DNA of 64,000 bases, from assembly GCA_903885605.1 (NCBI GenBank), contig CAISJD010000198.1, positions 1 through 64,000 of the forward strand. Direction: 5' to 3'. Under the pieces are notes generated by a model. The model searched no databases and was not told where the DNA came from. It saw nothing but the letters and a program-made list of their open reading frames with translations. Made by a program: the position numbers and the translations under genes. The stretch is from an uncultured Chthonomonas sp. Its GTDB lineage: Bacteria > Armatimonadota > Chthonomonadetes > Chthonomonadales > CAJBBX01. This document shows positions 8,550 to 22,259 of the stretch, piece after piece. Every line of letters starts with the position of its first letter. Positions within the stretch are counted from its first letter, which is position 1.

Positions 8550-9344
8550 TCAGCCCTCGCTGAACGCGAAGGCGCCGTAGCCCACCACCTCGGACCGGCC
8601 TCCCGCGGTGTCTCCTGAACTGCGCAGGTCCAGCGTCGTGGCTAAACACCCGCGCCGCTTGGCAACCCTGCAGAGCGCCCGGAGCGCCGGGGCCCCGCAG
8701 GCGTTCTCGTCGGCGATGCGCCCGGGCTCCAACTCCAGCACGGCCGCGGCCGTCTGCCCGTCGATCCTCCGCGCCACGGAGTAGGGTTCGTAGTGGCTCA
8801 GGTCCGTGCTGATCACCGGGAGGACGCCGGGCGCATCCCAGACGGCCTCCAGAACGTCCTCGACCACGTCGTCGCTTCCACGCCCGCAGAGGAGCGGCAA
8901 TACGGCGCACCGCGGCAGGGCACGCTGGAGGAACGGCAGCTCGACCTCCAGGCAGTGCTCGCGGCCATGGGCCGCATCGACGACCGCAACGCCGGACACG
9001 GCAGTGCAAACGGACGTGACCTCGGAGTCGGTCGGCACGTCGCCCAGCGGCGTTCGGAAGGCCGATGCCGAGGAGGCCGCCACTCCTGACACCCACACAC
9101 GATGGGCCGGACCGATCAGGACGATGGTACGAAGACGGTCGGCCTGCGCCGCCAGGCAGCGCGCCGCCGAGCCCGCGATCGGCCCCGAATAGGGATAGCC
9201 CGCGTGGGGCATGACGAGGGCTCGCAGGGACGCGCAAGGGCACGGCCGCGCGGCCGCGATGTAGCCGTCGACGGCGCGGGCCAGTGCCGAGGGGCTGTCG
9301 GGATAGAAGCTACCGGCGACTGCAGGTTGACGCACGTGCGACAT
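8550..9344 (-). CDS. amrB: AmmeMemoRadiSam system protein B (MEMO1-like)
   Basis: MEMO-family proteins share the fold of class III extradiol dioxygenases. In bacteria they occur beside a radical SAM enzyme and sometimes an AMMECR1 domain; the reaction is unsolved. Family marks are RQPAVAGSFYP at the N-terminus, VMPHAGYPYSGPIAG (metal-ligand His), IGPAHR, a central H(C)LEVELPFLQ and STDLSHY. The start is the internal ATG at 9344, with GAGGA seven bases upstream, giving 264 residues as usual for the family; an upstream in-frame ATG would add an arginine-rich tail. The radical SAM partner is divergently transcribed 77 bases away. No AMMECR1 gene is in the window. Confidence 0.94.
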   Translation of the reverse strand: MSHVRQPAVAGSFYPDSPSALARAVDGYIAAARPCPCASLRALVMPHAGYPYSGPIAGSAARCLAAQADRLRTIVLIGPAHRVWVSGVAASSASAFRTPLGDVPTDSEVTSVCTAVSGVAVVDAAHGREHCLEVELPFLQRALPRCAVLPLLCGRGSDDVVEDVLEAVWDAPGVLPVISTDLSHYEPYSVARRIDGQTAAAVLELEPGRIADENACGAPALRALCRVAKRRGCLATTLDLRSSGDTAGGRSEVVGYGAFAFSEG

Positions 9345-9420
9345 AGGTGTATCCTCGCTACGGTCGCGCGATGGGCGCCGTGGAGGCGGCCGCACCGCGC
9401 GAGCCGCCGGAGAACCCGAT

Positions 9421-10458
9421 ATGGCCGATGCCACAGACCATTACAGCACACATCCCGCACGGCACTGGTGCGTCGTTGAGGCAGGGCGAGTGCAATGCAA
9501 GCTCTGTCCGCGGGGATGCGTCCTGGGCGATGACCAGGTCGGCGCCTGCCGGAACCGGCGCAATGTGGCCGGCCGCCTGATGGCCGAGACCTATGGGCGC
9601 ACCAGCGGCGTCGCCGTCGATCCCATGGAGAAGAAGCCGCTCTACCACTTCCTGCCCGGCTCCTCGGTCCTCTCGTTCGGCGGCATCGGCTGCAACCTCA
9701 CCTGCGGCTTCTGCCAGAACTGGCATTTGAGCGCCGAGGGAACGCCGCGCGACCTGGGTGACGAGACATCGCCCGCCGCGGTGGTTCGAGCCGCCCGCAG
9801 GTACGGATGCGCAGCGGTGGCTTTCACCTACAACGAGCCCACGGTAAGCCTCGAGTACGTTATCGACGTGGCCGATGCCTGCCGTGCGGCGGGCATCCGC
9901 ACCGTGGTAGTCTCCAACGGATACATCACACGTCAGGCGGCAGAGGAGCTCTACCCCCGCATCGACGCGGCCAACATCGACCTGAAGGCCTTCAGGCCTG
10001 CGTTCTACGCCGCGTGCGGGGGCAAGCTGGACCCCGTGCTGGATACACTGCAACTCATTCGCCATTCGATGGATACGTGGCTAGAAATAACGACGCTCGT
10101 AATCCCCGGCCACAACGACAGTGACGCCGAACTGCGGGCGTCGGCCGCTTGGGTTACGCAGCGGCTGGGCCCGGATGTTCCGCTCCACTTCTCGGCATTC
10201 CATCCGGCGCACCGCTTCATGGACACTCCGCCCACGCCGGACAGCACGCTGCTTCGCGCCAGGCGCCTGGCGATGGAGGCCGGCGTCCGACACGTCTACC
10301 TCGGCAACACGCGCCTCACGGAGGGCGCCGATACGCACTGCGCGGGTTGCGGCGCACTGGAGATACGCCGACGCGGCTACCAGACTGACGCGTCAGGCCT
10401 TTGCCGCGGCCGGTGCAGCTCCTGCGGCGCGGCCTGCCCGGGCATCTTTGAGGCGTGA
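9421..10458 (+). CDS. amrS: AmmeMemoRadiSam system radical SAM enzyme
   Basis: The protein has the radical SAM cluster motif CNLTCGFCQN (Cys91, Cys95, Cys98) that binds the 4Fe-4S cluster and S-adenosylmethionine. FTYNEPT and the SNGYI segment are typical of this PflA-like subgroup. The N-terminus adds CKLCPRGC and CRNR cysteines, and the C-terminal ~50 residues add four CxxC-type pairs (CAGCG, CRGRCSSCGAAC), probably a zinc ribbon or auxiliary metal site. Length (345) and order fit the AmrS family, whose substrate is unknown. It is divergent from the MEMO-like gene and very likely works with it. The start ATG lacks a clear Shine-Dalgarno; GGAG lies about 15 bases upstream. Confidence 0.94.
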   Translation: MADATDHYSTHPARHWCVVEAGRVQCKLCPRGCVLGDDQVGACRNRRNVAGRLMAETYGRTSGVAVDPMEKKPLYHFLPGSSVLSFGGIGCNLTCGFCQNWHLSAEGTPRDLGDETSPAAVVRAARRYGCAAVAFTYNEPTVSLEYVIDVADACRAAGIRTVVVSNGYITRQAAEELYPRIDAANIDLKAFRPAFYAACGGKLDPVLDTLQLIRHSMDTWLEITTLVIPGHNDSDAELRASAAWVTQRLGPDVPLHFSAFHPAHRFMDTPPTPDSTLLRARRLAMEAGVRHVYLGNTRLTEGADTHCAGCGALEIRRRGYQTDASGLCRGRCSSCGAACPGIFEA

Positions 10459-10547
10459 CGGCGGCACAGGCAGGAAACGAGCCTATCCGCGCCTAACCTA
10501 GGCACGAACGTCCGGCGTCGTGAGCCCGGCCGTCACGGAGCGAGGCC

Positions 10548-11231
10548 ATGGTACGGGAGGGCATCCCGATCTTCCCACTGAGTACGGTGCTGTTCCCGCG
10601 CATGGCGCTACCCCTGCGCGTGTTTGAGCCGCGCTACCTCGCCATGGTCGCCCGATGCATCCGAGAGCGCACCGGCTTCGGCGTAGCCCTGATCCGCGAG
10701 GGCGAGGAGGTCGGCGGAGGCGCCGTGCCGGAGGTGATCGGCACCATGGCGCGGATCCGGGCCGTGCAGCACGACGACGAGGGCGACGCCCTTACGCTGC
10801 TGGCCATGGGCACCGAAAGGTACCGCCTGCTCGACTACACGACCGGTCCTGACGACTACCTCATAGGCACCACGAGCCTCTACCGGGACACGCCCCAGGA
10901 CACCGATGTCGTCGGACCCCTGGCCTCAGATGCGCGCCGGCTGTTCGGGCACTACTTCGCGTCGCTGGTCTCGCGCGCCGGCATCGACCTGCCGGAGTAC
11001 GACCTGCCGCACAACCCCAGCGACCTCTCCTTCGTTATCGCCGCAGTCATACAGCAGGAGGCCGCACGCAGGCAGGCGATGCTCGAGGCCCGCGACACCG
11101 CCCAGCGGCTGGCACAGGAGATTGAGATGCTGCAGGACAGCATCGAACGCTTGAATGCCATGCCGGAGGCCTCTGAGCAGATCCTCCGCTACGACACCCG
11201 CCACGCTCGCGAACTCACCAGCCGCAACTAG
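10548..11231 (+). CDS. LON substrate-binding domain protein (stand-alone)
   Basis: The protein consists of the N-terminal domain of Lon protease without its AAA+ or protease parts. The opening IPIFPLSTVLFPRMALPLRVFEPRY is diagnostic, followed by a GVALIREGEE strand and IGTMARI. The last ~60 residues are a helical bundle or coiled coil (IQQEAARRQAMLEARDTAQR region). Such proteins may bind unfolded or specific substrates; no catalytic activity is expected. The ATG follows GAGCGAGGCC. It sits between amrS and dxs, and dxs has its own promoter, so the gene is likely monocistronic. Confidence 0.9.
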   Translation: MVREGIPIFPLSTVLFPRMALPLRVFEPRYLAMVARCIRERTGFGVALIREGEEVGGGAVPEVIGTMARIRAVQHDDEGDALTLLAMGTERYRLLDYTTGPDDYLIGTTSLYRDTPQDTDVVGPLASDARRLFGHYFASLVSRAGIDLPEYDLPHNPSDLSFVIAAVIQQEAARRQAMLEARDTAQRLAQEIEMLQDSIERLNAMPEASEQILRYDTRHARELTSRN

Positions 11232-14312: not shown

Positions 14313-15359
14313 CTACCTCCCTGCAGGACGCTGGGGGCTGACGATCAGGCCGTCGAAGACCGCCACGTTGGTTCGGACGTGGCAGTTGCTGCCCACCACG
14401 CACCGCTCCAACCATGTGCCTTCGAGCACCACGGCGCCGTCCCAGAGGATGGACTCCTTCACCACGGCGCCGCTCTCAACCTCGCATCCCTGCCCGATGA
14501 TGGTGTTCTCCAGCACGCGGGCTCCGGGACCAATCTTGCAGTTGTCGCCGATGACCACAGGGTAGCCGATCTCAGCCGTCGGGTCGATCTCAACGTTGTC
14601 GCCGATCCAGACGAACTTGCGCTGCTGCGGCACCGGGAACTTGATGCGCACGCGGTCGGCAAGCGCGTCCAGGTGGGCGCTCCGGTAGGCGGCCAGGTCG
14701 CCTACGTCGCGCCAGTAGGAGGCCGTCAGGTGACCGTAGACGGGCCTCTGCTGCTGCAGGAGGAGCGGGAACAGGGTGCGGCCGAGGAGGTAGAAGGTGC
14801 CCCTGGGGATCAGGTCAAATACCTCGGGCTCGAACACGTAGAAGCCGGTGTTGGCCATATTGGAGAAGATGACCTCGCCCTTGGGCTTCTCAAGGAACCG
14901 GGTGACGCGCCCCTCCTCGTTCAGCAGCACGATGCCGTACTGCGACGGATCGTCCACCAGGCTCAGGCCGATCGTGGCCAGGGCCTTCTTATCCTTGTGC
15001 GCCTTCAACAGGCGACCGATATCCATGTCGGAGAGGTCATCGCCGCCCACCACGATGAAGGTGTCGTCCTTCAGGATATCCTCGGCGCGCTTCACGCTGC
15101 CGGCGTCGCCCCAGAGCTGGTCTTCGCGCTGGTAGTGCAGGTTCACGCCAAAGCGGCTGCCGTCGCCGAAGTAGGCCTCTATCTGGTCGCCCAGGTAGTG
15201 GAGGTTAACGACGATATCGACAATGCCGTGGTCGCGGAGCATATAGACGATGTGCTCCATCACGGGCCTGTTTACGATGGGTACGAGGGGCTTAGGCAGG
15301 TTGCGGGTAAGCGGGTCAAGTCGTGAACCCACACCGGCAGCCAGAATCATCGCCTTCAT
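14313..15359 (-). CDS. Sugar-1-phosphate nucleotidyltransferase with left-handed beta-helix tail
   Basis: The enzyme should form NDP-sugars from NTP and sugar-1-phosphate. The N-terminal GT-A domain (about 1-235) has the activating motif LAAGVGSRLDPLTRNLPKPL with Lys23, the metal-binding GGDDLSDMD and FLEKPKG. The C-terminal part (about 245-340) is a hexapeptide-repeat beta helix (VVIGDNCKIGPGARVLENTIIGQGC style). This layout fits mannose-1-phosphate guanylyltransferase/glucose-1-phosphate thymidylyltransferase-like proteins; nucleotide and sugar cannot be assigned by eye. GGGAGGT nine bases before the ATG supports the start. It is followed at four bases by the DUF4432 gene and preceded by a DegT aminotransferase, suggesting a small sugar-nucleotide operon. 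Confidence 0.92.
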   Translation of the reverse strand: MKAMILAAGVGSRLDPLTRNLPKPLVPIVNRPVMEHIVYMLRDHGIVDIVVNLHYLGDQIEAYFGDGSRFGVNLHYQREDQLWGDAGSVKRAEDILKDDTFIVVGGDDLSDMDIGRLLKAHKDKKALATIGLSLVDDPSQYGIVLLNEEGRVTRFLEKPKGEVIFSNMANTGFYVFEPEVFDLIPRGTFYLLGRTLFPLLLQQQRPVYGHLTASYWRDVGDLAAYRSAHLDALADRVRIKFPVPQQRKFVWIGDNVEIDPTAEIGYPVVIGDNCKIGPGARVLENTIIGQGCEVESGAVVKESILWDGAVVLEGTWLERCVVGSNCHVRTNVAVFDGLIVSPQRPAGR

Positions 15360-15418
15360 TGCCGTATAACCTCCCTTGGTTGGAGCCCGCTCGGGCTCAG
15401 CGTATGCGCGCGGCCCGG

Positions 15419-16540
15419 CTAGCCCGTGGCGAACTCGCGGACCGTCTGCGCGGCATAGTGCACCTGTTCGTCGGTCAGGCCCGGGTGGACCGGCAAGGAC
15501 AGGACTTCGGCTGCGGCAAGCTCGGCCCCGGGGAAATCGCCGGCCGCATAGCCCAGCCAGGCGTAGCCAGACTGCGTATGCAGCGGGGCAGGATAGTAGA
15601 TACCCGAATCGATGCCCCGATCCTTGAGGTAGGCCTTGAGTTCATCGCGGCGCGGATGCCTGATCGTGAACTGGTGGTACGTGTGGTAGGCAGCAGCCGT
15701 CTCCGCAGGCAGATGCACTGAGCCGCCCTGCAGGACCTTGCGGTAGGTGGCGGCATGGCGCCGGCGCGACGCCGTCCACTGGTTCAGGTGGCCCAGCTTC
15801 ACGCGGAGGATGGCTGCCTGAATGGCGTCCAGACGGCTGCAATAGCCGATCTGGTCATAGTAGTACCCCCCGCCACTGCCGTGGAACCGCAGCTTGAGCA
15901 GGCGCGCATGGACGTCGCCCGACCGGGTCAGCACCATGCCGCCGTCGCCGCAACCGCCGAGGTTCTTCGTCGGAAAGAAGGAGAGCGTGGCGCAATCGCC
16001 GTACGCGCCCACGGGCTTGTCGTCGTACTTGGAACCGATGGCCTGCGCGGAGTCCCACACGACGGAGCACCCGTTCGCTGAGGCCAGCGCGCCAAGGGCT
16101 GTGCGGTCGGACATCTGGCCGAAGAGGTCAACGGGCATTATGGCGCGGGTCTTCGGGCCGATGGCGCGTGCGACGCTGGCCGGGTCCAGGTTGAAGGTCT
16201 CGGGGTCGATATCTGCGAACACCGGCGTCGCCCCGGCGTGGACGATCGCCTCAATGGTCGCCACGAAAGTGAACGGCGTCGTGACAACCTCGTCGCCCTT
16301 GACCACTCCGCAGGCCAGAAGCGCCAGTAGGAGGGCATCGGTACCGGAGTTCACTCCCACGGCGAACGAGGCTCCGGTGGCTTCGGCCATCTCCTCCTCA
16401 AGGGCCGCGACCTCGGGTCCAAGGATGAAGCTGCCGCTACTGAGGACCCTCTGCACGGCATCATCGATCTCGCCCTTCATGGACTGGTACTGGGACGGGA
16501 GGTCGGCTAGCGGTACTCTCAATGCAATGTCTCCAACCAT
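15419..16540 (-). CDS. DegT/DnrJ/EryC1/StrS-family sugar aminotransferase
   Basis: PLP-dependent enzymes of this family transaminate keto-sugar nucleotides. Visible marks are LADLPSQYQ at the N-terminus, GVNSGTDALLLAL (phosphate-binding turn), VPVDLFGQM-like PVDLFG, the SAQAIGS region and SFFPTKNLGGCGDGGM with the Schiff-base lysine in TKNLG. Two starts compete. ATG 16540 has no Shine-Dalgarno and overlaps a TATAAT-like run. TTG 16522 has GGAG eight bases upstream and would give MRVPLADLPSQYQ, a normal family N-terminus. I list the longer form. The next gene downstream is the nucleotidyltransferase, so amino-sugar synthesis is a reasonable inference. Confidence 0.92.
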   Translation of the reverse strand: MVGDIALRVPLADLPSQYQSMKGEIDDAVQRVLSSGSFILGPEVAALEEEMAEATGASFAVGVNSGTDALLLALLACGVVKGDEVVTTPFTFVATIEAIVHAGATPVFADIDPETFNLDPASVARAIGPKTRAIMPVDLFGQMSDRTALGALASANGCSVVWDSAQAIGSKYDDKPVGAYGDCATLSFFPTKNLGGCGDGGMVLTRSGDVHARLLKLRFHGSGGGYYYDQIGYCSRLDAIQAAILRVKLGHLNQWTASRRRHAATYRKVLQGGSVHLPAETAAAYHTYHQFTIRHPRRDELKAYLKDRGIDSGIYYPAPLHTQSGYAWLGYAAGDFPGAELAAAEVLSLPVHPGLTDEQVHYAAQTVREFATG

Positions 16541-16571
16541 TATAATATGGTGCATCACCGTGCCGGGCCGA

Positions 16572-17660
16572 TCAGCCCGACGTCGCGCCTTCCCTTGACC
16601 CACGGCACCGCAGCGCGCAGCGGACCAGCCAGACGACCGCAGCGACGCCCAGGACCAGCGTCACCGCGAAGGCCGCCGCCCAGCCGTTATCGGCATGGAC
16701 GGGAATACCGGCCGCGTTCACGTGGGGTGCGAGCATGTACTCCCGCACCCGATGACGGGCCATCACCATGCAGCCCACGCCCAGGCCTGTCAGAACCGTC
16801 GCAAGCCACGTCGCTCGCTTCGCGACGGCCAACGCCGCAAGCCCCAGGACAATGCCCAGAGCCAGCACGCCCGTATCGTGTGCTGACGCGCCCATGAACT
16901 GGCGCCCAATGCGTGGGGGCAACGCCAACAGGTACCAGACGCCAGACACCATCAGCAGGCCGGCGCCCACATGGAACCAGTGCATGCCCGTACGGTGTGC
17001 CCAGGCGGCCCAGTCCGCATCCAGCGACCGGAACCGCAGGCCCATGAGGCAGCATGCCAGCCCTGCCACTGCCGGAGCCGCCAGGACAGTATGCAGATAC
17101 CGCGCCGGCAGCATGGGGTCACCCAGGTTCAGGGCGGTGCCGTATGCGCTCGCGGCGTAGATTGGCGCCCACAGCCCGGGCTCAAGCATCAGCGTCATGT
17201 TGTTGGCGAAGACGGCGGCCACCAGCAGTGTCAGCACAGCGCTCAGCCACGCCAGCGCCTGCCCCCGGTCACCGAGCCACGATGGCCGGAGGTAGGCCAG
17301 GTAGAGCCCCAGATAGGCCACGCACAGGGCCGGGATGATGAGCAACCAGCTCCAGGCCATCAGCACAGAGGAGGTGTAGAAGGCCTGGCCGTAGAGCACC
17401 TGAAGGAAGAGCAGCGGCGCCACCCCCAGCGTGATGGTGATGGCCATGGAGGCGGGAAGCAGGGCGCGCATCCGCGAGGCGAAGAGCGCGCCGGAATCTC
17501 CCTGGGGCCGACGACCATAGACCAGCAGCATCAGAAGCCCGCCCACGGTGACGTTGATGGCGAGCAGGTGCAGCGTGAACGTGAGCAGCGAGAGCGCCTT
17601 CAGCAGCGACGCCGCGGCCGGCAGTCCGAGAGGGTCGACCGGAGGTATCACCGTAGGCAT
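16572..17660 (-). CDS. Multi-pass membrane partner of the bd-like oxidase subunit
   Basis: The 362-residue protein is almost wholly hydrophobic, with about nine transmembrane helices. It includes LTFTLHLLAINVTVGG near residue 30, which mirrors the HVFISHFAIGGG block of the gene upstream. The two genes overlap by 13 bases and have similar helix patterns, so the protein is probably the second membrane subunit of a cytochrome-bd-superfamily complex. Candidate haem-ligand histidines are His31, those of the RYLHTV and HRTGMHWFHVG segments, and one in the C-terminal HRVREYMLAPHVN. AAGGGG seven bases before the ATG supports the start. No c-type haem motif is present. Function is inferred mainly from the pairing. 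Confidence 0.75.
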   Translation of the reverse strand: MPTVIPPVDPLGLPAAASLLKALSLLTFTLHLLAINVTVGGLLMLLVYGRRPQGDSGALFASRMRALLPASMAITITLGVAPLLFLQVLYGQAFYTSSVLMAWSWLLIIPALCVAYLGLYLAYLRPSWLGDRGQALAWLSAVLTLLVAAVFANNMTLMLEPGLWAPIYAASAYGTALNLGDPMLPARYLHTVLAAPAVAGLACCLMGLRFRSLDADWAAWAHRTGMHWFHVGAGLLMVSGVWYLLALPPRIGRQFMGASAHDTGVLALGIVLGLAALAVAKRATWLATVLTGLGVGCMVMARHRVREYMLAPHVNAAGIPVHADNGWAAAFAVTLVLGVAAVVWLVRCALRCRGSREGATSG

Positions 17661-18988
17661 AGACGGTCCCCTTCCGATCTTGCCGGCAAGGCCGCAGATG
17701 GGCCTGCCCCCTCAGCCTGCAAGGAGATCAGGTACGCGACCAGGCCACCCCGCTCCTCGTCGGTGCCGATGAATGGCGGCATGGCCCCCTTGAGCGTGTT
17801 CAGGTACTGGATCTGCTGGTCCAGCAGCGCCTTGTCCCACCCGCGTGTCGCAAACTTGATGCTGTTCAGCCCCGACACGGTATGGCAGCTTGAGCACTGG
17901 ACCCGGAAGACGCTGCGGCCGATCTTGATCGGATCGTCCCAGTCCGCCTTGGCCGGCACGTGCCACCGGGAGCTGGCCAGGAGACCCAGCGACGAGATAT
18001 CCGCAAGATCCGCCGGCCGCAACGAGTTCGAGTACATGTACTCGTAGATCACGTAGGGCTTGCGCACCGCCTCGCGCACCCATTCCGTTGCGCCTGTGGC
18101 GCCCAGAGCCAGGGCAGCCAGAACACAGGCGAACGTCACGTGCGTCTGCCGCGGGAAGAGCATCGGACCGAACAGGGTTCCCGCCACAAGCAGGCCTGAG
18201 AGGAGTAGCGACGCCACGGTGAACGCGGTCACCATCGGCGTGCCGCCTGAGGCGAGGAAGCGCGCCTGGTCCGGCAACGTCCCCGCGAACCAGAGCCCGG
18301 CGAACGGGATCGCGGTCGCACCGGCGATCACCCACTTGGCCGAGTAGCGCACCATGCGCTCCTTCAGCACGAGGTCAGTCAGTTGGGACGACGTGATCAG
18401 GGCATAGACGCCTGCCAGAGCGACACACACGGCGCTGCGCATGACCAGCGAGGGAAGCATGCCGGGGTTGAGCCACGCATCTGTCAGCGACTGCGTCTCG
18501 GGCCACTTGCCCGATGTGAGCATGAACGTGAGGATACCGTTGATCATCAGCAGGCTGAGCCAGGCTGAGCCGAAGTAGACCCAGCCCACGGCCTGATGCG
18601 TGCGCGGATCCATCCGGTCCCAGCCGTAGCGGTAGACCAGCGCCGCTACGATCTCGACCAGGAAGAAGACCCACTCAATGGCCCAGACCCAGGCGAAGAG
18701 GTGGATCAGCGCGGAGACGGCAGTGGGGTTGACCAGCGCGATCGTCCACCAGATGCCCACACCGGTGACCGCTCCGAAAACCAGGATCACGAGTGTGAGG
18801 AAGTTGGTGTGATGCCTGGCAAACCCCAGCACGCCGGCATCGCGCGCCCGGAGGCCCATGCGCTCCGTCAGCACGAGGAAGAGGCCACCGCCGATGGCAA
18901 AATGCGATATGAAGACATGCACGACGGCGACGGCTGCGATCAGCAACCCTCCCCCCGTCAGCGGCACGTCCCAGATCGGATAGTTCAA
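17648..18988 (-). CDS. Cytochrome bd-like oxidase subunit I with C-terminal cytochrome c domain
   Basis: This looks like a CydA-superfamily subunit fused to a mono-haem cytochrome c. About nine transmembrane helices fill residues 10-310, with HVFISHFAIGGG at 24-35 and a conserved TEWVREAVRKPYVIYEYMYSN block at 301-321. A periplasmic cytochrome c domain follows, with the haem motif CSSCH at 365-369 and probable axial Met403 in GAMPPF. TTG 18988 is chosen: GGAAGGA lies seven bases upstream, it yields the family N-terminus MNYPIWDVPL, and it avoids overlap with tolC that the upstream ATG would cause. The pair with the next gene suggests a quinol- or cytochrome-c-linked terminal oxidase of the cytochrome-c-bearing bd groups (OR-C-like). 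Oxygen reduction is inferred. Confidence 0.82.
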   Translation of the reverse strand: MNYPIWDVPLTGGGLLIAAVAVVHVFISHFAIGGGLFLVLTERMGLRARDAGVLGFARHHTNFLTLVILVFGAVTGVGIWWTIALVNPTAVSALIHLFAWVWAIEWVFFLVEIVAALVYRYGWDRMDPRTHQAVGWVYFGSAWLSLLMINGILTFMLTSGKWPETQSLTDAWLNPGMLPSLVMRSAVCVALAGVYALITSSQLTDLVLKERMVRYSAKWVIAGATAIPFAGLWFAGTLPDQARFLASGGTPMVTAFTVASLLLSGLLVAGTLFGPMLFPRQTHVTFACVLAALALGATGATEWVREAVRKPYVIYEYMYSNSLRPADLADISSLGLLASSRWHVPAKADWDDPIKIGRSVFRVQCSSCHTVSGLNSIKFATRGWDKALLDQQIQYLNTLKGAMPPFIGTDEERGGLVAYLISLQAEGAGPSAALPARSEGDRLCLR

Positions 18989-19097
18989 CGCGGCGTCCTT
19001 CCCTTGGCGTGTGCGGCGCAGAGCGCGTGAGAAGTCACAGATTCGCCGCACGTCGCCGATATCCTGCACCGGCAGGGAGACGTACGGTGGGCCGGGA

Positions 19098-20495
19098 TCA
19101 TCGACCGGCGGCCTCAGTGGGCTGACCTTCGTAAGCATAACGGCCCAGGGCCTTCTGCAGCTTGGTCTGGGAGCCGAGGAGGTCGTACTCGGCGTTGATG
19201 CGGTTGGCCTGCGCCTGCGTCAGGGCGGTCTGGGCGTCGCTCACCTCCAGCAGGGGCGACGCGCCCGGCGTGAGCGTCACGCCGTTGCGGAAGCGGACCT
19301 GGGCTAACCGGTACTGCTCCTCGGCCTGGACGAGGGCCGCGCCGGTGACCTTCATGCGCTCGCCTGCCTCTACCCAGCCCAGGTAGGCCGACCGGACCTC
19401 AAGCGCCAGACCGTCCAGCACCTGCTGCTTCACGATCCTGATTGAGGCGGCGTCGGCCTGTGCCTGTACCTTGCGAGCCCTGGCGAGGCCGCCGTCAAAG
19501 AGAGGTAACGAGACCGAAGCGACGGCGGCCCAGCTGGTGGATCGGCCCAGCGCACCCACATTGGGATTGAACGAGAGGTTCCACCCGAGCCCGAAGGTGG
19601 GCATGACGCTCCGGTCCGCGAGGATCAGCCCCTTGTCAGCGGCCCTGATCTGCAAGTCCACCTGCAGCGCCTCAGGGCGTCGGCCATACGCCTCCTGCAT
19701 CGCCATGGCCAACGGATCGGGCTCGGACTTGGTGTCGCCCACCTTGGCATCCTCCAGCTCCAGCGGCGTATTCTGGTCCTGGCCCATGGCGTTGTTCAGC
19801 GCGGCCACAGCGAGATCGACCCGGTTCCGGGCGGAGATGAGAACCTGCTCCGAGTTGGCCACGTCCGTCTCGGCCCGGAGCGTATCGAACCGCGTGCCGG
19901 TACCCGCCTTCAGGTAGGCCTGGGCAGTGGAGCTCCGCTCCTTGGAGTTCTTCAGCGCCTGTTCAGCTACCGTCACGAATGCCCTGGCCCGCAGGACATC
20001 CAGGTAGGCGGACCGCGCGTCGGCAACCACGGAGTTCCGGGTCCGAGCCACATCCAGCTTGGCCACGAGGTCCGAGAACTCCGCGATGGAGAGCGCGGCG
20101 CGGATCTGGCCGGCAACGTCCAGCGGCAACGCGGCCTGCACCGTGACGCCGATCTGGTTCTGGACGGTGATCGGCACATCGGCGTCGTTCAGCTTCACCG
20201 TCGTGCCCTTGTCCAAGCGGGTGCCGGTGACGGCGGCGGTGGCGGTAGGATGCGATACGGCCTTTGCTTCGCCGACCTTGCCGCCCGCCTTCCTCAGCGA
20301 CTGGGAGGCAATGGCGAGCGCCTTGCTCTTGCTCACCGCGATGCCTACGGCCTGGCTCAGGCTCAGGCGCATGACGGCTGGCTGCGAGCCTGGGCGCGTA
20401 GAGGGCTGATCGTCTCCAGGGGCGGCAGCCGCCGCCAACGAGGCCAGAACCCAGGCGGCGGAAAGGCCGCCGGCCAGAACGCGTGAAACCGTCAT
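19098..20495 (-). CDS. TolC-family outer-membrane efflux protein
   Basis: The protein has a signal peptide (VLAGGLSAAWVLASLAAAAA) and two repeats of the long-helix outer-membrane-factor fold. These include LSLSQAVGIAVSKSKAL in the first half and YGRRPEALQVDLQIRAADKGL, LPLFDGGLARARKVQAQADAA in the second. It would form a trimeric exit duct for drugs or proteins. ATG 20495 is chosen for AAGGAG seven bases upstream; a longer in-frame reading overlaps tetR. It lies 77 bases downstream of tetR on the same strand, so it is probably controlled by it. No RND or MFP partner gene follows; the next gene is the oxidase subunit, with about 110 bases between. Confidence 0.93.
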   Translation of the reverse strand: MTVSRVLAGGLSAAWVLASLAAAAAPGDDQPSTRPGSQPAVMRLSLSQAVGIAVSKSKALAIASQSLRKAGGKVGEAKAVSHPTATAAVTGTRLDKGTTVKLNDADVPITVQNQIGVTVQAALPLDVAGQIRAALSIAEFSDLVAKLDVARTRNSVVADARSAYLDVLRARAFVTVAEQALKNSKERSSTAQAYLKAGTGTRFDTLRAETDVANSEQVLISARNRVDLAVAALNNAMGQDQNTPLELEDAKVGDTKSEPDPLAMAMQEAYGRRPEALQVDLQIRAADKGLILADRSVMPTFGLGWNLSFNPNVGALGRSTSWAAVASVSLPLFDGGLARARKVQAQADAASIRIVKQQVLDGLALEVRSAYLGWVEAGERMKVTGAALVQAEEQYRLAQVRFRNGVTLTPGASPLLEVSDAQTALTQAQANRINAEYDLLGSQTKLQKALGRYAYEGQPTEAAGR

Positions 20496-20572
20496 GTGCG
20501 TACTCCTTGGTGCAGACGAGACACAAGCGCACTCGCGACGCCCGCATCCGTACACAGTATGTTGCATGGAGG

Positions 20573-21202
20573 CTATGTCTGCCGCACCGAACCCGGAGGC
20601 TGGGCGGCGCCGTCGGCGACGATAGCCACGACCCGTTCGACATGCGTCTCCACGAGGGCATCCCACTCCGGGCCGCAGACGCGTCCGGCCAGCAGGAAGA
20701 TGGTGTGTACGTACCCCAGCAGTAGCCAGGCAAGGGTCATGGGATCGACATCTGGGCGCACTTCGCCGCGCCGTTGCCGCTCCGCGACGAAATCGGCGAT
20801 GATCTGGCGGCCGGAGGCCGACTGGGCGCCGACGGCGCCCGCGAGATCTGCGTCCTGCAGCATTTCGGCCATCTGCATACGAACCAGCGCGCCGCTCTCG
20901 TGGATGCCTCGCATCATGTCGGTCAGCAGCGACTTGAGCGCGTCCCGAAGCGGGCGGTCGGCTGCCTGGGGAACCATGAGCTCGATGTGCTGCTTCCAGG
21001 AACGCTCCGACCAGCAGGCAGCCACGAGGTCGCTCTTGCTGCTGAAGTAGTGGTAGAGCAATCCCTCCGTGACGCCCACGGAGCGGGCGATCTCACGGAC
21101 CGATGTGCCGCGGACGCCCTTCTCGCAGAAGAGCGCCATGGCGGCGTCCAGTATCTGTTCGCGCCTGCTCTGGGCGGGCAGGCGTTGGCTTCGGTGTGTC
21201 AC
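20573..21202 (-). CDS. TetR-family transcriptional regulator
   Basis: The N-terminal 65 residues form the usual TetR helix-turn-helix: RREQILDAAMALFCEKG, then TSVREIARSVGVTEGLLYHYFSSKSDLV. The remaining ~145 residues are the helical ligand/dimer domain (GYVHTIFLLAG near the end). The start is a GTG at 21202 without a clear Shine-Dalgarno. A 20-base imperfect palindrome lies 23 bases upstream (21226-21245) and is a good candidate operator, pointing to autoregulation. The downstream tolC gene suggests it represses an efflux function; the ligand is unknown. Confidence 0.94.
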   Translation of the reverse strand: MTHRSQRLPAQSRREQILDAAMALFCEKGVRGTSVREIARSVGVTEGLLYHYFSSKSDLVAACWSERSWKQHIELMVPQAADRPLRDALKSLLTDMMRGIHESGALVRMQMAEMLQDADLAGAVGAQSASGRQIIADFVAERQRRGEVRPDVDPMTLAWLLLGYVHTIFLLAGRVCGPEWDALVETHVERVVAIVADGAAQPPGSVRQT

Positions 21203-21225
21203 GGCGTGCGCATTCCAGTGGCGGT

Positions 21226-21245
21226 TTGATTAAACGTTCACTCAA
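21226..21245. promoter_or_regulatory. Candidate TetR operator
   Basis: TTGATTAAACGTTCACTCAA is an imperfect palindrome with eight of ten base pairs matching around the centre ACGT. It is AT-rich against a very GC-rich background and sits just upstream of tetR, within the 182-base divergent spacer shared with the GalU-like gene. This is the size and layout of typical TetR-family sites. Confidence 0.6.
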
Positions 21246-21384
21246 CAGCGAGTATACCCGCCGCGGCCTCAAAGCAAGCGTCGGCCGGCTGTCTCGAGCC
21301 TCGCAAGGTAAAATGCTCGAGGTTCTCGATCCATACCGTAGCCGCGCCGGGCTAGTGTTCGCCCAACCATGAAGGAGACCACCC

Positions 21385-22259
21385 ATGAAGGTCCGCAGAG
21401 CCGTCATCACGGCGGCGGCGCGCCGTGAGCGTGCGCTTCCGCTGCATACGCTGGTCGACTGTGACGGCGCACGCAAGTCGGTGCTGCGGATCATCGTCCA
21501 GGAGGCGTTGGGCGCCGGGGTGGAGGCGGTCTGCGTCGTCGTATGCCCCGGAGATGAGGCCGCCTATGCCGATGCGGTGGAGGAGCTGGCGCCGCACCTG
21601 ACCTTCGTGCCGCAGCCGGAGGCGGAGGGCTACGGCCACGCCGTGCTCTGCGCCCGCGAGTTCACGCAAGACGAGCCGTTCCTCCACCTGATGGGCGACC
21701 ATGTCTACGTTGCCCGCGGCCGATCCTACGCCCAGCAGGTGGTCAGCGTCGCCGAAACGGCCGAGTGCTCCGTCTCCAGCGTTCAGCCCACCCGCGAAGG
21801 CCTGCTTCCCTACTTCGGCGTCATCGGTGGGTCGCGCGTGCCGGGCACGCCCGACCGCTACCTGGTGGGCGCGGTGCGGGAGAAGCCATCGCCCACCCTT
21901 GCCGAACAGGAGTTGGTCATCCCCGGCATCCGCGCGGGCCACTACCTCTGCTTCTCGGGCATGCACGTCCTCACACCGGTTGTCATGGAACTCCTCGCGG
22001 ACCTGTACGCCGCCAGAAGGCCCAACGAGAAGCTGGAGCTGTCGCCGGCGCTCAACGAGTTGGCCCGGCGAGAGAGGTACGAGGCGCTGGAGGTGCAGGG
22101 CATCCGGTACCCCGTGGACGTGCGTTACGGAATGCTCCTGGCCCAGATGGGGTTGGCGCTTAACGGCAGGGATCGCGACATGCTCCTGGCGCTCATCACC
22201 GAGAACCTGGCCCAGGCTGCGTCCGGCGGCGGGGCGCTCGGCCCCATGGCTCCGTTGCC

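Follow-up and report, generated by a model that had tools for sequence, protein, structure and literature searches.

Two overlapping genes, here called A and B, in the 64,000-nucleotide stretch of DNA analysed in this work (the window) probably encode a heterodimeric oxygen reductase of the bd superfamily that is fed by cytochrome c. The pair resembles CydAA' and is filed with the c-haem-bearing (OR-C) kind on the basis of its features and not of its position in a tree; we give this reading as a whole a probability of about 0.72. The window belongs to a genome of the Armatimonadota, and the nearest named records to it are Chthonomonas-labelled and Armatimonadetes MAGs.

Genes A and B and their relation to cytochrome bd subunits

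Gene A (17648-18988, minus strand) encodes a CydA-like subunit with a C-terminal cytochrome c domain and begins with a TTG codon. Both this start and the conserved ribosome-binding site upstream of it (AGGGAAGGA, 18996-19004, minus strand) are kept in two congeners, and the homologues of A start at the same position with M-x-Y-x-x-W. A longer open reading frame reaching 19138 was therefore ruled out as gene A. Nor is A a chance reading frame, since the same ligands are conserved in homologues found throughout Armatimonadota and in bins that were assigned to three further phyla.

The initial annotation had described A as a CydA-like subunit with a fused CSSCH cytochrome c domain, and the open reading frame, Pfam and structure matches all agree with this description. 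The match to the Pfam family Cyt_bd_oxida_I (PF01654) is weak, passes the cut-off (E 2.9e-7, 29.8 bits) and covers residues 17-184 only. The cytochrome c domain (17729-17929, minus strand) matches Cytochrome_CBB3 (PF13442, E 2.2e-10) and contains the CSSCH motif, residues 365-369, with Met403 as the distal residue. A is approximately 16% identical to canonical CydA, and its alignment with the CydA profile gave an hhalign E-value of 2e-11. Among solved structures a sequence search found only bd subunit I and cytochromes of the c6 type, and the 16 best PDB matches found by Foldseek with the AlphaFold model of A (pLDDT 79, approximately 8 transmembrane helices, cytochrome c domain after the last helix) were all cytochrome bd subunits. 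The membrane topology of the pair is a predicted one: provided that the N-terminus of A is outside, as we take it to be in canonical CydA, the cytochrome c domain would be periplasmic.

Gene B (16572-17660, minus strand) overlaps the open reading frame of A by 13 bases and is predicted to have the fold of a bd subunit, so that the overlapping second subunit of the initial annotation is confirmed. No family in Pfam or NCBIfam was matched by B, and a sequence search of solved structures with B gave no match. On the other hand, the 16 best PDB matches of its AlphaFold model (pLDDT 87.9) were all cytochrome bd subunits, and in these structure matches its fold is likened to both bd subunits. The identity of B was indicated by profile comparisons. 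Against the CydB profile only a weak match was obtained (probability 29), and B is not recognised as the second subunit of a canonical CydAB. The profiles of A and B align with each other over 290 columns (hhalign E 2e-11, probability 97.3), and B genes are also among the genomic matches of the A profile (e.g. E 1.7e-7). His24 of A aligns with His31 of B, a residue present in all 44 B sequences. Judged by these sequence comparisons B is a remote CydA-type paralogue, and since the profiles are homologous and the two histidines coincide, the pair resembles CydAA' and not CydAB. The initial annotation had correctly placed the pair, with its c-haem, in the bd superfamily (Pfam, hhalign and Foldseek matches), but missed the CydA-type nature of B as well as the Rieske protein and cytochrome b encoded between B and A in many relatives.

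Haem and quinol ligands

The ligands were examined in a MAFFT alignment of 22 A homologues and two canonical CydA sequences, and conservation was counted in 43 sequences of A and 44 of B. His24, Glu105 and Glu112 of A were mapped to E. coli CydA through a profile alignment. The full-length hhalign alignment of A and CydA left the C-terminal motif unaligned because of the missing Q-loop; the C-terminal piece was therefore aligned separately, and Glu306 and Arg309 were mapped by MAFFT together with a short local C-terminal profile alignment (EAVRKP versus EYGRQP).

His24 (E. coli His19), Glu306 (Glu445) and Arg309 (Arg448) are each kept in 43/43 A sequences and Glu105 (Glu99) in 42/43, and the position of Glu112 (Glu107) holds Glu in 41 and Asp in 2 of the 43. 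We take His19, Glu107 and Arg448 to be ligands in E. coli CydA; the roles of Glu99, Glu445, His186 and Met393 in cytochrome bd have been described (PMC6853902). By these alignments A retains the ligands of the high-spin site of the bd superfamily. The initial annotation had proposed a check of the haem ligands, and in the alignments those of the active site proved to be conserved in A and not absent. The CxxCH motif is found in 43/43 A sequences and Met403 in 42/42 of those with that column filled. Two highly divergent A-B pairs of family f29 (L164 and L165) have a long branch and keep the ligands, with Asp replacing Glu112.

The low-spin haem b558 and the quinol site present a different picture. 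Met183 and Arg184 of A occupy the site of the b558 ligand His186, Arg184 being invariant (43/43) beside the place of the histidine, and Met393, the other b558 ligand, has no counterpart in A. Compared with the two canonical CydA sequences the Q-loop is missing, and the Q-loop residues Lys252 and Glu257 fall on Ala and Phe. A therefore carries a c-type haem motif on a CydA subunit that lacks the quinol site, which is the feature of OR-C. With the b558 ligands and Q-loop lost and CxxCH present in 43/43 sequences, the non-canonical donor suggested in the initial annotation gains in weight, and the donor is probably not quinol.

The same losses might also indicate that A-B no longer reduces O2 and instead passes electrons between the membrane and periplasmic cytochromes, as a module for electron transfer or quinone reduction, an idea that has been raised for the bd-like proteins of nitrite oxidisers (PMC3578206). 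Apart from the missing b558 ligands and known quinol residues, such a role would fit with the putative nature of haem d in A-B, and with the fact that some genomes carrying A and B only (the pair type) lack any bc complex. However, the ligands of the high-spin site are kept in 41-43 of 43 sequences, which would be unexpected for a disused site, and we consider this explanation quite unlikely.

In the oxygen reductase that we favour, the haem content, the reduction of O2 and the donor would be, as we infer them, as follows. A would be the catalytic subunit, with its first helices and the conserved E-x-x-R-K-P end of the last helix holding two high-spin haems. These would form a b595/d-type site at which O2 is reduced, and B would be a CydA-derived partner that replaces CydB. 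The low-spin haem b558 and the quinol site would have been lost, and the fused cytochrome c domain would be the point at which electrons arrive from the periplasm.

Distribution and gene order

Among the 61 genomes nearest to that of the window, B is present in all 20 that carry a clear A; one further match to A, the 21st, proved to be a canonical CydA (G050). Strong matches to the A profile were found in somewhat over 50 of 291 genomes of the phylum. Every A locus has a B (43/43), and the distances between A sequences correlate with those between B sequences with an r of 0.95, a value reached in 0 of 2000 permutations. At one locus (L071, in G040) both the A and B matches contain stop codons, an apparent decay or a sequencing error.

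Two layouts were observed at the 43 mapped loci. In 25 of them the order is B, Rieske, cytochrome b, A (e.g. L006:3211-7578, L063:6940-11144 and L147:3335-7413, and 22 further loci), and Pfam confirmed the Rieske protein and cytochrome b in two of these 25 operons. These loci come from several families of Armatimonadota, from one Acidobacteriota bin and from one bin assigned to Cyanobacteria. The remaining 18 loci, those of the window's genus included, contain A and B only. At residue 384, within the cytochrome c domain, the pair type has Trp (15/15 with the column filled, a count that omits the two divergent f29 sequences) and the operon type has Arg (25/25), a split in the sequences that is possibly a mark of different donors. 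In the tree, which separates A from canonical CydA by a very long branch to the latter, the bc-operon type forms a cluster (SH-aLRT 93) that encloses one long-branched clade of the pair type. A literature search gave no description of a B-Rieske-cytochrome b-A operon in Armatimonadota; the original description of OR-C was outside this search and may contain it.

Gene order and residues make the Rieske/cytochrome b core the likely donor in the 25 loci, where electrons would pass from quinol through this core to haem c, and on to the bd-type site and O2. The operons also bear on the possibility that A-B is a bd-type enzyme with periplasmic c-type cytochromes as donors that mainly removes O2, peroxide or nitric oxide. 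Canonical bd enzymes have known peroxidase and NO-related roles, and in the window's genome a canonical CydAB is also available for respiration. In contrast, the association of A-B with a quinol-oxidising core in 25 loci points to respiration, and no peroxidase or NO gene adjoins the pair of the window, so that a removal role seems unlikely.

Upstream of A in the window are genes for a tolC-family outer membrane protein (19098-20666, minus strand) and a tetR-family regulator (20573-21202, minus strand), neighbours that we judge to be outside the system. The initial annotation had called this order unexpected and connected the oxidase with an efflux duct. The order is indeed present, but only as genus-level synteny: it was found in three genomes of the same genus, as part of a longer syntenic block that extends to both sides. 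In the other 45 locus stretches no relative of tetR was found and only one, weak, relative of tolC (L068, approximately 5 kb from B and on the other strand), and the proposed link to efflux was not upheld. A joint function of A-B with tolC, e.g. in efflux or export under the tetR regulator, could draw on the shared strand and the distance of approximately 110 bases between tolC and A, in which no consensus terminator was found. Yet other genera lack the regulator and tolC beside A-B, the order is limited to one genus (3 genomes), and the cluster contains no pump or adaptor gene, which makes such a function highly improbable. Within 15300-21400 neither a consensus promoter nor a consensus terminator was detected; the terminator-free gap is compatible with co-transcription of tolC and A-B, whereas functional coupling is not supported. 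A stretch of approximately 30 bases in the gap between tolC and A (18989-19097) is conserved in the three congeners. Sugar-nucleotide genes (nucleotidyltransferase and aminotransferase) follow A-B both in the window (14313-16603) and in another genus of the same family (L053:3238-5466).

Electron supply in the window's genus and known bd-type systems

The genome of the window (G000) was rated 100% complete, and the three genomes of the genus (G000, G001 and G002) 98-100%. Single-family searches, for which controls gave matches in known genomes, returned no match to cytochrome b (PF00033) or haem-copper oxidase (PF00115) in G000 or both congeners, and none to NrfD in G000. A canonical CydAB is encoded on contig C113 next to an Rrf2-like regulator, and proteins of cytochrome c assembly are encoded as well. 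A is the sole match above the cut-off to PF13442 in this genome. Since the genus lacks the Rieske/cytochrome b module, haem c would have to be supplied from elsewhere, and in the proposed mechanism it would be fed by another periplasmic c-type cytochrome or a quinol-cytochrome c reductase. Several multihaem cytochromes are encoded in G000, and the donor to A may be among them.

On another contig of this genome (C201, L171:7186-11510) a DmsE-like multihaem cytochrome with 9 CxxCH motifs lies near a protein with 8, and the open frame between their genes (8710-10746) has no Pfam match. A C-x-G-C-H haem motif occurs in large proteins encoded at L110, L111, L112 and L114-L117 of G000; domain scans of L110 and L111 gave a hydrazine-synthase-alpha middle domain in both, FGE-sulfatase in one and NPCBM in one.

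A more far-reaching, and tentative, proposal is that Armatimonadota and relatives possess a bc-bd hybrid respiratory complex, a two-CydA oxygen reductase with haem c that has a Q-cycle core as an integral part. The window's genus, lacking haem-copper oxidase and bc complex, would then keep the oxidase half and supply it by another periplasmic route, perhaps a multihaem one. Which donor feeds those members of the bd superfamily that do not use quinol is an open question, stated in citing papers for OR-N; the operon offers a concrete candidate in the Rieske/cytochrome b core, whose genes lie between those of the two bd-type subunits. If the operon works in this way, a Q-cycle would be added ahead of the bd-type site and more energy conserved than by a quinol-fed bd enzyme. 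The window's genus offers a natural example in which the bc part is missing.

Three families of the bd superfamily are described in the excerpts of citing papers (PMC10839748, PMC6606698). The OR-N CydAA' of Nitrospirota and Nitrospinota is similar to A-B in its two CydA-type subunits and proposed cytochrome c donor, being classed as a putative cytochrome c oxidiser (PMC10839748), and in some genomes it adjoins alternative complex III; these excerpts mention no cytochrome c domain fused to OR-N CydAA', unlike in A (PMC10839748, PMC12342949). The bd-like protein of Nitrospina has 14 transmembrane helices according to an excerpt of its description (PMC3578206), versus approximately 8 in A. In Ca. 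Manganitrophus, which belongs to a different phylum, the TO_3 and TO_4 clusters for terminal oxidases (PMC9040806) are alike by description. Canonical CydAB of E. coli, like that on contig C113, shares the fold and high-spin-site ligands with A-B but differs in that A has neither the b558 ligands nor the Q-loop and carries a putative haem c, and in that B is not recognised as CydB. The closest resemblance in features is to OR-C, as described in citing papers, with a CydA core that has the active-site ligands, no quinol site and a cytochrome c motif. Filed by these features, the A-B pair would be a further member of an already described kind of the bd superfamily.
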